Below, piece by piece: positions 53,575 to 64,000 of a stretch of DNA of 64,000 nt. The DNA is from Myxococcales bacterium. Lineage in GTDB: Bacteria > Myxococcota_A > Polyangia > Polyangiales > Polyangiaceae. The notes under the pieces were generated by a model that saw only the letters and a program-made list of their open reading frames with translations, did not search any database and was not told the origin of the DNA. A program made the translations under genes and the position numbers. The stretch covers positions 1 to 64,000 of the forward strand of contig CANJCO010000010.1 of NCBI GenBank assembly GCA_947473045.1. Direction: 5' to 3'. Positions within the stretch are counted from its first letter, which is position 1. Each line of letters opens with the position of its first letter.

Positions 53575-55965
53575 ATGACGACCGAGCCCGCCGCCGCCAC
53601 CTCGGCTTCGCACGCGCTGGCCCGCTGGCCCGCGGCGCGAGCCCTGGCCGCCCTCGCGCTGCTCGTGGTGCTCATGTTCGGGGACGTGCTCGCGAGCTCG
53701 GGCGCGCAGGTGCTCGGGGCGCCCTCGACCGACATGGCCCTGCAGTTCGTGTCATGGCGCGAGTTCGGCTTCGGGCAACTTCGCCACGGCAACCTCGCCC
53801 TGTGGAACCCTCACATTTACGGCGGAGCGCCCTACTTTGGCGGCGCGCAGGCGGCGCTGCTGTACCCTCCCAACTGGGTACTTCTCTTTCTGCCCACAGT
53901 GCGCGGGATCAACCTCTCGATCGCCATCAACGTGTGGCTCCTCGGCGCGTTTACTTATGCGTGGGCGGGTTACCGCGGGCTCGCGCCGCTCGCGAGCCTG
54001 GTCGCCGCCGCCTTGCTCATGCTGTGCGGCCCTCATTTCATGCACGTCTACGCCGGGCACCCGGTTCACATGGCGTCGATGGCGTGGGCGCCGCTGCTGC
54101 TTCTGGCCGTCGACGGCGTGCGCGCGCAGCTGCCGCACGGGCCAGCGGCTAAAGTGTGGGGTTTTTGCCTGCTCGGCGCCGTTGCCGAGGCGATGCAGCT
54201 CCTGGCGGGCCATCCGCAATATGCCTTTTACTCTGCGATCGCAGCCGCCCTCTACCTTGCGGCGTACGTCGACCGGCGGGCGATCGTGCGCACCGTGCTG
54301 CAGCCGGCGGGCGCGCTCGCGGTCATCCTGATTTTCGGGGCGGCGCTGGCGAGCCTGCAGCTGCTCGTGTCGATCGAGGCCACGAGCGAGACCGTGCGCA
54401 GCGTGCGCCTTCCGTTCGAGTTCGCCTCGATGTTCGGCTTTCCTCCCGAGAACCTCGCGACGCTGCTGAGCCCCTATGTGTTCGGTGACATGTCGACCGT
54501 CCCTTATTGGGGCAGGTGCTACCTGTGGGAGATGTCACTCTATTTTGGAGTGGCGGCGCTCGCGCTCGCTACCTACGCAGTGGCCTACGGGCGCGGCGCT
54601 TCGCTGGGAGGTCGGCGCGACACCTCCCGGCTGCTACTGGTGGCGCTGGTCACGTTCGTGATCGCGCTCGGCGTGCACACGCCGCTCTTTCGCGGCCTCT
54701 ACACCTGGGCGCCGGGCTTCGACAAGTTTCGCAGCATCTCGAAATTCACGTTTCAGTCGTCGCTCTTCCTCGTCATGCTCGCGGCCACCGGCCTCGACGC
54801 GGTCATCCGTAAACGGGAGATCCCGCGCCGATTCGTGCTGGGCACGGCGGGAGCGAGCGCTGCGGTACTCGCGCTTTGCGTCGCCCTGCGCCTTCGTTCG
54901 ATCTCGGGGTGGGGCGAGTGGTTTCGCGCCATCGCGCACACGGGCGAATCGTATCTGCCAACCGCGGCGGCGAGCGACCCCGCATTTGCGCAGGCCGCGC
55001 GCAGCCACGCAGCCAGCTCCCTGCTGCTTCCGGCGTTCATGCTGGCCCTGACGGCGGCTGCCCTGCACTTTTCTGCCAGGTGGCGCCACGCCACGACGGC
55101 GCTCGCGCTGGTCGCAGTCGCCGAGACTTACGGCGTCGCGATGCACGCGCGCGCCACCTTCGATGCCGCGACGATCGCCGCGCCGGAGGTCACCGAGTTT
55201 CTGCGGGCCCACCCCGGAGACGCGCGCGTGCTCAACGTCCTTCAGCCGAACAGCGGCCTGTCGACGGGCGCCAGCGATCTGTGGGGGTTCGACCCTGGCG
55301 TCGTGCGCCGCTACGCCGAGTTCATCACGTGGACGCAAGGCGCGTCGCCGGACAAGGCTACCCAGTATGTTACCTTTCGGTCCCTCGATCCGCTCTACGC
55401 GATGCTTCGCCTGCGCTACGCGATGCTCCCTGACGCGCGCGGCGTGAAGGTTGTGGAGGCCGCGCTACCTCCCATGAAGCACGTGCAGCTCATCGCCACG
55501 GTTCAAGTCGCCGCTGGGCGCGACGCGGTGTTTTCGGCCCTTCGCGCGCCGGGCTTCGACCCCCGCACAACCGTCGTGCTCGAGTCCGCGCCGTCGGTCG
55601 CGCCCGACAGCTCCGCGACTCCGGGCAGCGCGCGCGTGATCGCCTCATCGACCGACTGGCTGGAGATCGAAGCCGACGCTCCCGCCGCGTGCGTGCTCCT
55701 GATCACCGATACCTTCACGCCGTCCTGGCGCGCGATCGCGCAGAGCGACAGCGCCCAGCAGCGCTACGAAATCATGCCGGCGAACTACATTTTGCGGGGC
55801 ATCCCGCTGTCAGCGGGGCACCACCACTTGCGGGTCGAGTACGCTCCGCGCTCGTTTCGCGCGGGCCTGTGGACGTCGGCCGCGGCGTGGCTGCTGCTCG
55901 TCGCATCAAGCGTTGTCGTGGCAGCGCGACTCCGCCGGCGCGAAGGGCGTGATGTCCGCTCGTAG
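53575..55965 (+). CDS. YfhO-like polytopic membrane protein (GT-C superfamily)
   Basis: A 796-aa membrane protein with about twelve hydrophobic helices over residues ~20-510 and another near 770, plus an extracytoplasmic C-terminal region (~520-760). The first external loop has NLALWNPHIYGGAPYFGG (~75-92) with the aspartate-bearing region before it (STDMALQF), a layout known in YfhO and other GT-C lipid-linked sugar transferases. It likely moves a sugar from a polyprenyl donor to an envelope target. Starts at ATG 53575; its stop overlaps the start of the TrmY-like gene by 14 bp. Confidence 0.86.
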   Translation: MTTEPAAATSASHALARWPAARALAALALLVVLMFGDVLASSGAQVLGAPSTDMALQFVSWREFGFGQLRHGNLALWNPHIYGGAPYFGGAQAALLYPPNWVLLFLPTVRGINLSIAINVWLLGAFTYAWAGYRGLAPLASLVAAALLMLCGPHFMHVYAGHPVHMASMAWAPLLLLAVDGVRAQLPHGPAAKVWGFCLLGAVAEAMQLLAGHPQYAFYSAIAAALYLAAYVDRRAIVRTVLQPAGALAVILIFGAALASLQLLVSIEATSETVRSVRLPFEFASMFGFPPENLATLLSPYVFGDMSTVPYWGRCYLWEMSLYFGVAALALATYAVAYGRGASLGGRRDTSRLLLVALVTFVIALGVHTPLFRGLYTWAPGFDKFRSISKFTFQSSLFLVMLAATGLDAVIRKREIPRRFVLGTAGASAAVLALCVALRLRSISGWGEWFRAIAHTGESYLPTAAASDPAFAQAARSHAASSLLLPAFMLALTAAALHFSARWRHATTALALVAVAETYGVAMHARATFDAATIAAPEVTEFLRAHPGDARVLNVLQPNSGLSTGASDLWGFDPGVVRRYAEFITWTQGASPDKATQYVTFRSLDPLYAMLRLRYAMLPDARGVKVVEAALPPMKHVQLIATVQVAAGRDAVFSALRAPGFDPRTTVVLESAPSVAPDSSATPGSARVIASSTDWLEIEADAPAACVLLITDTFTPSWRAIAQSDSAQQRYEIMPANYILRGIPLSAGHHHLRVEYAPRSFRAGLWTSAAAWLLLVASSVVVAARLRRREGRDVRS

Positions 55966-56551
55966 CTTCGTCATCGTGGGGCAGACGGCGCTCGCGTCTG
56001 ATGCCTTTCTGCTGAACGACTTTCCGGGCACGAGCGGACGCCTCGACGTGCTCGCGCGCTGCGTTCGCGCCGCGCTGCTCGTGTCGCACGGGGTGCGGCG
56101 CGACGCTGCAGTGTACCTGGTTCTGTTGGGAGGTCCCAGAGCGCCGCGCACCGTGCGAATCGCGGGCGCGGACGTGAAGTTCCTAAGGCCCGACGAGCGA
56201 AGCATCGCGACGCTGCTGCAGAAGGTTCTCACTGGTGATCACGGAGCGGCGGGCGACGGCTTCGTGCCGGTGAAGCCCGGCATCGCCGTCGCAGCGGGCG
56301 GGCTCGACGCAGTGCTGGCCGACCTCACGACGGAGTCGCTGTATGTGCTCGACGAGACCGGCAGCGACGCGCGCGGGCACCTTCGCAGCGCGGGTGGTGC
56401 ATTTTTTCTTGGGGACCACGTCGGCTTCAATCCCGACGCGCGGGCCCAGCTGCTGTCGCTCGGCGCGCGCACGGTCTCGGTCGGTCCGGTGAGCCTGCAC
56501 ACCGACGACGTCGTGTCGGTGGTGTCGAACGAGCTCGATCGAATCGCGTAG
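55952..56551 (+). CDS. TrmY-like tRNA pseudouridine-54 N1-methyltransferase (COG1901)
   Basis: A 199-aa SPOUT-class protein. It has the TrmY pattern: SARSFVIVGQTALASDAF (~2-19), NDFPGTSGRLDVLARCVRAA (~22-41), SHGVRRD, LYVLDETG (~130-137), FLGDHVGFNPDARAQLL (~152-168) and a C-terminal VSNELDRIA. TrmY methylates N1 of pseudouridine 54 in archaeal tRNA with SAM. The family is mainly archaeal with scattered bacterial members, so the bacterial substrate is uncertain. I chose ATG 55952, preceded by GAAGGG, over a longer frame inside the yfhO-like gene. It overlaps that gene by 14 bp. Confidence 0.9.
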   Translation: MSARSFVIVGQTALASDAFLLNDFPGTSGRLDVLARCVRAALLVSHGVRRDAAVYLVLLGGPRAPRTVRIAGADVKFLRPDERSIATLLQKVLTGDHGAAGDGFVPVKPGIAVAAGGLDAVLADLTTESLYVLDETGSDARGHLRSAGGAFFLGDHVGFNPDARAQLLSLGARTVSVGPVSLHTDDVVSVVSNELDRIA

Positions 56552-56638: not shown

Positions 56639-57487
56639 ATGCCCGTCTTCGTCGTCTGTGAGCTCGGCGCACCGCCACAGCGCGTGAAGATCGACTCACC
56701 GCCCGTTCGCGTCGGTCGCGATCCTGAAAATGACATCGTCATTCGGGAAGACGGCGTGTCCCGCGATCATGCGCTTTTCGTCATGGCCGACAGAGGCACG
56801 TGGATCGTCAGCTGCGTCTCCGACACCAACCCCATCGTCGTTGACGGCGTGCTGACCAGTCGCGGGGCCACCGTGCGCGAGGGCTCCCAGGTGCTGGTGG
56901 GCAGCAAGTACATGATCATCTTTTCGAACACCGACGCAGCTGCGGCCGAGTACCTCGGTTCTGCTGCGGGCTACACGCAGGCCAGCTGTCTGCAGTGCCA
57001 ATGGACCGGCATCGTCGGAACCTACAGCGTCGAGCCAACGTGCCCGCGCTGCGGAGGATCCGACTTTTCGGGCCTCAACCACTTCGACAGCGGGCACCAC
57101 GCCGTGGCCGAGATCGAGGACCTCGGCGACACTTCGACGATCGTCGCGTCTGCGAGCGAGCTCGCGGCTGATTTCAGCCGGCTGCTCAAGGCCAAGCGGA
57201 GCGCGCTGGAGCGTGTCGACGGTCACAAGGAGGCAGGGGCCCGGCTGACGCTGAAAGAGACGGAGCCGCTCGTGCTGGCGAAGTCATCGCCCGGCGCGGC
57301 CGCGCTTCACGGCATGCTCATCGTCGGCAGCGCCAGCATTTCGTGGAGCAGCAGCCAATTCGTGATTCGCAGCGCCCTGACCCACCCGGCGCTCAAATTG
57401 AACGGCAAGGCGATCGAAGGCGCGCCGCTCAAGGATGGCGACCTCATCGAGATCGGCACCAACAGCTTCCGGTTCGTCGTCGGCTGA
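56639..57487 (+). CDS. FHA-domain protein with central zinc ribbon
   Basis: A 282-aa protein, probably cytoplasmic. The N-terminal FHA domain (~5-100) has VGRDPEND, VSRDHALF and the SDTNPIVVDG loop, a variant of the usual N-G segment. A zinc ribbon follows (~120-144: CLQCQWTG...CPRCGGSD). The C-terminal ~75 residues (LVLAKSSPGAAALHG to NSFRFVVG) have a strand pattern and a LKDGDLIEIG segment like a second, degenerate FHA domain. It follows the TrmY-like gene by 87 bp, so it may or may not share its transcript. Partner unknown. Confidence 0.86.
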   Translation: MPVFVVCELGAPPQRVKIDSPPVRVGRDPENDIVIREDGVSRDHALFVMADRGTWIVSCVSDTNPIVVDGVLTSRGATVREGSQVLVGSKYMIIFSNTDAAAAEYLGSAAGYTQASCLQCQWTGIVGTYSVEPTCPRCGGSDFSGLNHFDSGHHAVAEIEDLGDTSTIVASASELAADFSRLLKAKRSALERVDGHKEAGARLTLKETEPLVLAKSSPGAAALHGMLIVGSASISWSSSQFVIRSALTHPALKLNGKAIEGAPLKDGDLIEIGTNSFRFVVG

Positions 57488-59959: not shown

Positions 59960-61131
59960 TCAGCGGCTGAGCCAGCTGTCGTGATAGTCGGCGCGCTCGA
60001 TGCCGAGCGCCTGCGCGGTCGGCAGCAGCGGCTCGAACGTGTCGCACATCACCGCGAGCTCGTCGGTCGACTTGCTCCCGATGCTCGCCTCGTAGGCGCC
60101 CGGATGGGGGCCGTGGGCAATACCTGCAGGATGCAACGAAATCGCACCGGGTCCGACGCCGCGCCGACTGGTGAAGTTGCCGCGCAAGTAGAGGATCACC
60201 TCGTCGCAGTCGACGCTCGAATGCGGATACGGGCACGGGATCGCGTGCGGGTGGTAGTCGGTCACCCGGGGCACGAACGAGCAGATGAGAAACCCGCGCC
60301 CCTCGAACGTGCTGTGAATCGTGGGCGGCAAGTGTATCAAGCCCGTTTTTGGCTGGTATTTCTCAATATTAAACGCCCACGGGTACACGAAGCCATCCCA
60401 GCCAACCACGTCCATCGGAGCCGTCTCGAGCAGGTAACGCGTAAAGCGCCCTCCCCGCTTGACCAGCAGCTCGCGCGGGCCGTCGAGCGGCTGATCGGGC
60501 GAGGCGATCGGGCCCGTAGGGTGCACGAAATCGCGATGCGTGTAGGGCGCATCCATTCGCAGCTGACCGACCGGATTGCGAAACTCAGCGGGGATGAAGA
60601 CGCTGGGCGCCTCGAAGATCATCACCCGAAGCTCGGGCGAGGTCAGGTGCCAGCGGTGAATCATGCCGTGCGGAACGTGCACGTAGTCTCCCGCTGCGAC
60701 GTCGAGCCAGCCGCACGGCGACTCAAGACGGGCGGAGCCTTCGTGAATGAAAAACAGCTCGTCGCCGTCGCCGTTGGAGAAATACGCGTCATCGCTGGTG
60801 GTGACGCGCGCGAGCAGTATGGTCACGTCGCGGTTGAAGAGCACCGGGGTGCGCGCGTCGATGAGCTGTCCCGCCGCCGGAAGCGCATCCGAGAGGTAGA
60901 GCCGGCGCTTGAGCGGAAACGCGCCGTCGGGAGCCGCGACAGGCGGGTGAAAACCGCGCGTGGTGCCCCCCACCTCGAGGTGCGGCGTCACCGGATTGCG
61001 ATGATAGAAGTAAGTAAACGGGCCCGAAAACCCGCCGCGCGTGAACATCTCTTCATGAAAGAGGTGGCCGCGCGCGTCGCGAAAAACGGTGTGGGGCTTC
61101 GGGGGAACGATCCCCGCGCTCTGACGGTCAA

Positions 61132-61135
<4 letters not shown>
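59960..61135 (-). CDS. hmgA: homogentisate 1,2-dioxygenase
   Basis: Opens the aromatic ring of homogentisate to maleylacetoacetate with Fe(II) and O2, in tyrosine breakdown. The 391-aa product has the family features: FHEEMFTRGGFSGPFTYFYH near the N-terminus, a cupin part with VHVPHGMIHRWHL, then HSTFEGRGFLICSFVPR, FTSRRGVGPGAISLHPAGIAHGPHPG and DYHDSW. It starts at ATG 61135, which overlaps the hppD stop (61132-61135), so the genes are coupled. The next enzymes (maleylacetoacetate isomerase, fumarylacetoacetase) are not in the window. Confidence 0.95.

Positions 61136-64000
<2,865 letters not shown>

Follow-up and report, generated by a model that had tools for sequence, protein, structure and literature searches.

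The window (the whole 64,000-nucleotide stretch of DNA analysed here) carries on its forward strand an ATG-initiated open reading frame for a TrmY-type protein of 199 amino acids, preceded by a large membrane-protein gene and followed by a gene for an FHA-domain protein (Table 1). Assignment of this protein to the TrmY family (COG1901, PF04013) is secure, with profile, fold, tree and residues all in agreement. The Pfam model PF04013 matches residues 4-197 with an E-value of 1.2e-50 and 172.5 bits against a cut-off of 25.5, and the protein scores 191.8 bits against the NCBIfam TrmY equivalog NF002560, for which the curated cut-off is 183. A phmmer search of the PDB returned AF_1056 (2.6e-32), MJ1640 (5.5e-28) and VC_A1059 (4.2e-16), which are the solved COG1901 proteins, and no others. 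The first-pass annotation had recognised a TrmY/COG1901 SPOUT enzyme from three motifs, FPGTSGRLDVLAR, SHGVRRD and, at residues 191-197, VSNELDR; all three are present and the identification is upheld by both profiles, the fold and the tree. It had also named loss of the SAM-knot residues as evidence against this identity, and these residues are retained. The positions kept in both the Myxococcota and the archaeal TrmY proteins are G29, R30, D32, S45, H46, R49, P80, D81, E82, R83, G154, D155, H156, G178, S181 and D196.

Table 1. Features of the TrmY locus in window coordinates
Feature	Position	Strand	Basis or remark
TrmY-type SPOUT methyltransferase gene, 199 aa	55952..56551	+	profiles, phmmer, tree, AlphaFold model
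N-terminal motif FPGTSGRLDVLAR, residues 24-36	56021..56059	+	G29, R30, D32, R36 common to Myxococcota and archaeal TrmY
SHGVRRD motif, residues 45-51	56084..56104	+	alignment
R79-PDER, residues 79-83	56186..56200	+	PDER as in archaeal TrmY; R79 Myxococcota-specific
GDH, residues 154-156, SPOUT knot motif	56411..56419	+	common to archaeal TrmY
GPVSLH, residues 178-183, knot loop region	56483..56500	+	common to archaeal TrmY
D186-V187, start of C-terminal helix	56507..56512	+	clade-specific; archaea have H(Q)-C
Large membrane-protein ORF, 796 aa	53575..55965	+	overlaps TrmY start by 14 nt
FHA-domain protein	56639..57487	+	87 bp downstream of TrmY; PF00498 6.9e-14

The overlap of the TrmY start with the upstream membrane-protein frame and the presence of an FHA protein alongside, both pointed out in the first-pass annotation, are real. 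Its YfhO-like label for the membrane protein did not hold, as no Pfam or NCBIfam model matched at E<=1e-3, and the setting itself, which it had offered as meaningful context, is common to no other TrmY locus compared. For this comparison, flanks of approximately 8 kb from the window locus and from 30 bacterial loci were set all-against-all. Flanks share no neighbour beyond close pairs, and a conserved operon with the membrane and FHA genes was therefore rejected. Within the window itself, no RNA-modification gene lies beside TrmY.

To model the fold of the monomer, we used AlphaFold with 46 relatives of the window protein, which gave a mean pLDDT of 91. The model has the knotted SPOUT fold of the TrmY type and was most similar to the solved COG1901 structures, with Z-scores of 28.9 (2qmm), 27.9 (3aia) and 23.8 (VCA1059, 2QWV). 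Nep1 was the next fold match (Z 15.5; 12-20% identity), and 2'-O- and m3U-SPOUT enzymes all scored below 12. The first-pass annotation had proposed a comparison with the archaeal TrmY crystal structures, and it is to these that the model lies closest, far above Nep1.

A maximum-likelihood tree of 78 rows, all of them from COG1901, placed the 29 Myxococcota TrmY sequences in a single clade (100/99) that is embedded in the archaeal part of the tree, close to Methanotrichaceae. The nearest archaeal proteins are 43-47% identical, and identity within the Myxococcota clade falls to about 50%. VCA1059 sits on a branch of more than 3.5 substitutions per site, outside the Myxococcota clade and not as its sister; the tree gave no specific grouping of the two, although a branch of this length can be placed only with uncertainty. 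The tree is most simply explained by a single ancient transfer from a methanogen-like archaeon and later transfer or loss inside the class, which agrees with the old archaeal transfer originally proposed. The exact donor is uncertain, as the deep forks of the tree are open.

TrmY was found in 42 of 318 Polyangia genomes (26 of the 179 good ones) and in 6 of 284 drawn from the phylum Myxococcota. The named loci belong to Myxococcota MAGs (Labilithrix, Polyangiaceae, Sandaracinaceae and Sorangium). Several TrmY-bearing genomes consist of a single contig of 10-13.6 Mb, one of them 10,327,335 bp in length. In the window's own genome (class Polyangia, 5.15 Mb, 99.98% complete) the gene is single-copy, with GC and GC3 like those of its neighbours. 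Based on this base composition and on the complete chromosomes of its relatives, archaeal contamination is excluded. The TrmY-positive genome closest to the window is G251, a Myxococcales MAG of the same family as the host. No TrmY was found in G477, the sole genome of the same genus searched (89% complete), and this, together with the distribution across the class, indicates that the modification is dispensable. Viral contigs and phages contained no TrmY relatives, and among plasmid records only three Vibrio/Photobacterium replicons (1.7-2.1 Mb) did so, at 25-27% identity. A mobile-element origin was rejected, with the phage and viral sets empty and the plasmid relatives only of the remote Vibrio type.

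The Myxococcota proteins retain most of the residues that archaeal TrmY conserves, but two positions set them apart. Position 79 is arginine in 29/29 Myxococcota TrmY proteins and asparagine or serine in 45 of 46 archaeal sequences; position 186 is aspartate in 29/29, where archaea have a near-invariant histidine. In addition, the archaeal C187 is replaced by alanine or valine. Two loci labelled as bacterial that fall outside the Myxococcota clade (L046 and L082) retain N79, Q186 and C187, and both genomes encode Pus10. The switched residues thus track the absence of Pus10, as a correlation. The switches at 79 and 186 may bear on substrate. A change of function, which the first-pass annotation had raised as a possibility, is suggested by two such clade-wide switches.

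The substrate of archaeal TrmY is Psi54 made by Pus10 (PMC9508554, PMC7912444, PMC7694415). All that the archaeal enzyme requires is a T arm in which Psi54 is followed by a pyrimidine at position 55 (PMC9508554, PMC7694415), and it accepts the isolated T arm (PMC9508554). Pus10 could not be found in the Myxococcota genomes: none of 36 TrmY-positive genomes exceeded the cut-off of the Pus10_C model, and the full-length Pus10 model matched none of 13 (6 TrmY-positive and 7 relatives). The same full-length model, as a positive control, matched 15/15 genomes with archaeal-type TrmY. Weak Pus10_C matches in G173 (18 bits) and G482 (15.8 bits) lie under the cut-off of 27 and were judged to be chance. 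TrmFO, which makes m5U54, was present in 36/36 TrmY-positive genomes (three of them giving no more than fragmentary matches below the cut-off), and U54 of the host tRNAs is therefore probably m5U54. The absence of Pus10 and the presence of TrmFO favour action on another RNA site over Psi54. With Pus10 lacking and U54 open to TrmFO, the database name 'tRNA (pseudouridine(54)-N(1))-methyltransferase' is doubtful for this protein.

It is nevertheless conceivable that the enzyme does what it does in archaea, making m1Psi54 in some tRNAs on a Psi54 supplied by an RluA- or TruB-type synthase of altered specificity, with m5U54 coexisting in different tRNAs. The NF002560 score above the equivalog cut-off fits this proposal, as do the tRNA genes of the window's genome, in which a tRNA model gave U54 in 41/41 and U55 in 40 (C55 in 1), so that the T-arm needs of archaeal TrmY would be satisfied; U65 occurs in about half (approximately 20). 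Synthases are also available, at 7-11 PF00849 members per TrmY-positive genome searched. We nonetheless consider m1Psi54 unlikely, as TrmFO would occupy U54, Pus10 is absent, near-invariant archaeal residues have given way to R79 and D186, and no extra synthase marks the TrmY-positive genomes. TruB was found in 35/36 of them, with more than one copy in G233 and G405 alone (split matches in G474 and G486 were set aside), and PF00849 synthases were found in 20/20 TrmY-positive genomes tested, in numbers similar to the 5-9 of TrmY-negative genomes, a comparison that genome size confounds. An extra pseudouridine synthase particular to TrmY-positive genomes was accordingly rejected. The first-pass annotation had posed a choice between a Psi54 synthase in the host and a different RNA target; the expected synthase did not materialise as Pus10, with U54 open to TrmFO throughout, and the second alternative is favoured, a non-Pus10 Psi54 synthase being the less likely option.

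Other TrmY loci offer some insight into where the pseudouridine may come from. Four loci of one subclade (L024, L025, L029 and L032) have TrmY between a PF13679 methyltransferase gene and a gene for a TruC-type synthase, in that order, and the junctions inspected are ATGA and GTGA start/stop overlaps; this link escaped the flank clustering and was later shown by profile searches. The TruC link represents one inherited event in one subclade. In a different lineage (L019, genome 73% complete) the frame of an RluF/RsuA-type synthase (TIGR00093, 126 bits; cut-off 109) extends over the start of TrmY, and this RluF-type link would point to 23S rRNA instead. Both synthases fall short of the NCBIfam equivalog cut-offs (188.7 against 328 for TruC; 123 against 318 for RluF). 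Further genes for RNA modification or translation, TtcA (L033) and PrmC (L037, overlapping), lie directly upstream of TrmY elsewhere. The pseudouridine-synthase family PF00849 is the commonest Pfam family among 75 immediate TrmY neighbours, with 4 occurrences (5 with L029) from two independent events, for which a rough, post hoc Poisson estimate assuming random gene order gives 0.0006-0.013 depending on what is counted.

The window's genome also has a TruC-type gene, far from TrmY. Matches above 200 bits to TruC-type enzymes were found in 26/36 TrmY-positive and 11/18 TrmY-negative genomes, with a few more intermediate or fragmentary, and four TrmY-positive genomes more than 90% complete (G251, G436, G439 and G269) have no strong match. 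Strict TrmY-TruC co-occurrence was therefore rejected and TruC is no universal partner; the TruC-type enzyme is a candidate partner of TrmY, not a required one.

The chief rival to the tRNA T arm is a site in rRNA. Here TrmY would methylate a pseudouridine from an RsuA/RluF-family synthase, for example in the 23S 2604 region, to give an rRNA m1Psi like that made by Nep1 in archaea and eukaryotes. The L019 overlap would fit such a move, as would the position of Nep1, itself an rRNA m1Psi enzyme, as the next nearest fold, and the PF00849 synthases common to all TrmY-positive genomes tested. However, the RluF-type link occurs in a single incomplete genome, and the more persistent one, seen in four genomes, involves a tRNA synthase of the TruC type. 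We therefore regard an rRNA target as improbable, to much the same degree as m1Psi54.

Taken together, we favour a TrmY of archaeal origin that makes m1Psi at a bacterial pseudouridine other than 54, most likely in tRNA, and would place the probability of this reading at roughly 0.55. The fuller version, in which Polyangia make m1Psi outside position 54, in tRNA or else in rRNA, through an archaeal TrmY that has exchanged Pus10 for a bacterial pseudouridine synthase, for example of the TruC type, seems to us an even bet. In this scheme, the ancestor of a Polyangia group would have acquired TrmY from an archaeon. A presumably dimeric enzyme would bind SAM in its knot and methylate N1 of a pseudouridine to give m1Psi, a chemistry that is most likely retained, since the fold and the common TrmY residues are kept. 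The pseudouridine would be supplied by an ordinary bacterial synthase instead of Pus10, as expected for a host that lacks Pus10 and has TrmFO to turn U54 into m5U. The likeliest place may be the T arm of tRNA, at Psi65 (TruC-type) or Psi55 (TruB), the T arm being where the archaeal relatives bind. The overlap of TrmY with pseudouridine-synthase genes in two lineages argues for this proposal, and the clade-wide switches at positions 79 and 186 are consistent with a changed substrate. Counting against it are the single origin of the TruC link and its failure to extend to every TrmY-positive genome, the RluF-type link to 23S rRNA, the window's own neighbours, none of which modifies RNA, and the sparse occurrence of TrmY in the class.

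The two substitutions at 79 and 186, which lie near the PDER and knot motifs, could instead reflect changed chemistry, in which the methyl group would go to a different base or position, such as N3 of U or Psi or a nucleotide other than Psi, and no pseudouridine synthase would be needed. RsmE and RlmH in the wider fold make m3U and m3Psi (PMC9508554). All other common TrmY residues are kept, however, and the synthase-gene overlaps suggest a pseudouridine substrate, so that this proposal appears less likely still than either m1Psi54 or an rRNA site. That TrmY is left over from horizontal transfer and is dispensable or non-functional, as its patchy occurrence in the class might suggest, is very improbable, given intact frames with no internal stops, dN/dS values of 0.17-0.27 in seven pairs that indicate sustained purifying selection, and retention of one clade over a large divergence.

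The description of the gene as archaeal-type in a bacterium holds, although it is not wholly new: bacterial COG1901 members, those of Vibrio, were already pointed out in 2007 (PMC1829167), and bacterial members were listed in 2016 as a 'bacterial unknown methylase' (PMC5041015). One review confines TrmY to archaea (PMC5372735), a 2020 review assigns m1Psi to Archaea and Eukarya only (PMC7694415), and the text of a 2025 map of Vibrio cholerae tRNA modifications mentions neither VCA1059 nor m1Psi (PMC12588516). Our limited literature search found no report of the Myxococcota clade, which forms a second bacterial COG1901 group, much more archaeal-like, and makes the question testable through two candidate partner synthases and two diagnostic residues. 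If the proposed m1Psi reading with an m1Psi outside position 54 is correct, a tRNA-modifying enzyme would have retained its chemistry and exchanged its upstream partner after inter-domain transfer, and m1Psi would be a modification not assigned to bacterial RNA in the 2020 review (PMC7694415).

Among known systems, TruC (tRNA Psi65 synthase) and RluF (23S Psi2604 synthase) are of a different enzyme class from TrmY and are not adjacent to it in the window's genome, but such genes overlap TrmY in relatives and may supply its pseudouridine. Nep1/Emg1, the rRNA pseudouridine N1-methyltransferase, shares the SPOUT fold and the type of reaction expected for the window protein, but belongs to a separate family (Z about 15, 12-20% identity). 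The Vibrio-type COG1901 protein VCA1059 (PDB 2QWV) has the same family and fold (Z 23.8), a bacterial host and no known function; it differs in its identity of approximately 25-27%, its very long branch and its lack of the PDER arginine and other motifs. Closest of all is archaeal TrmY (MJ1640, AF_1056), the tRNA Psi54 N1-methyltransferase, with homology over the full length, Z-scores of 28-29 and the GRLD, SHxxRRD, PDER, GDH and GPxSLH motifs in common. The window enzyme differs from it in its Myxococcota host, which has TrmFO and no Pus10, and in carrying R79 and D186 in place of the archaeal N/S and H.

Two bacterial-labelled MAGs, L046 and L082, each carry a full-length Pus10, the archaeal Psi54 synthase (451 and 466 bits, above the cut-off), alongside an archaeal-type TrmY, which in L082 runs on for about 70 further residues at its C terminus. 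Either these hosts are archaea under a wrong label, or they are bacteria holding the complete Pus10-TrmY pair.

Genome G455 has two TrmY copies, the second of which overlaps an RluF-type synthase. The two could be paralogues with different partners, or possibly a binning artefact (the genome is 73% complete). Two other TrmY-bearing genomes, of one genus, contain a divergent second TruB paralogue, and a weakly DarG-like macro-domain protein follows TrmY at locus L016. In the window's own genome, the T loop of tRNA-Arg(CCT) reads TCCGATT, with C55 in place of the near-universal U55. The two dioxygenase-like ORFs at 59960-62295 of the window overlap by 4 nt.

Coordinates of the loci and genes described
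Feature	Location	Strand	Remark
L046	G557 C47:6968-8152		Centralia_MAG_189, labelled 'Proteobacteria'
L082	G556 C91:43469-44650		Candidatus Bipolaricaulota, LacPavin
TrmY	G455 C273:6126-6689		first copy
TrmY	G455 C295:4695-5279		second copy, L019
Second TruB	G233 C58:119634-120023
Second TruB	G405 C49:687-1067
Macro-domain protein	L016 8630-9109		immediately 3' of TrmY
Homogentisate dioxygenase-like ORF	window 59960-61135	minus	by eye from translation
4-Hydroxyphenylpyruvate dioxygenase-like ORF	window 61132-62295	minus	by eye from translation
PF13679 methyltransferase	L024 7315-7995		immediately 5' of TrmY
PF13679 methyltransferase	L025 7309-7995		immediately 5' of TrmY
PF13679 methyltransferase	L032 7333-7995		immediately 5' of TrmY
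PF13679 methyltransferase	L029		immediately 5' of TrmY

The PF13679 methyltransferase gene upstream of TrmY, which in L032 overlaps the TrmY start, is possibly another RNA methyltransferase. At all four loci its product carries a HACGALTD...PCCH signature, which resembles that of Trm13/METTL25.
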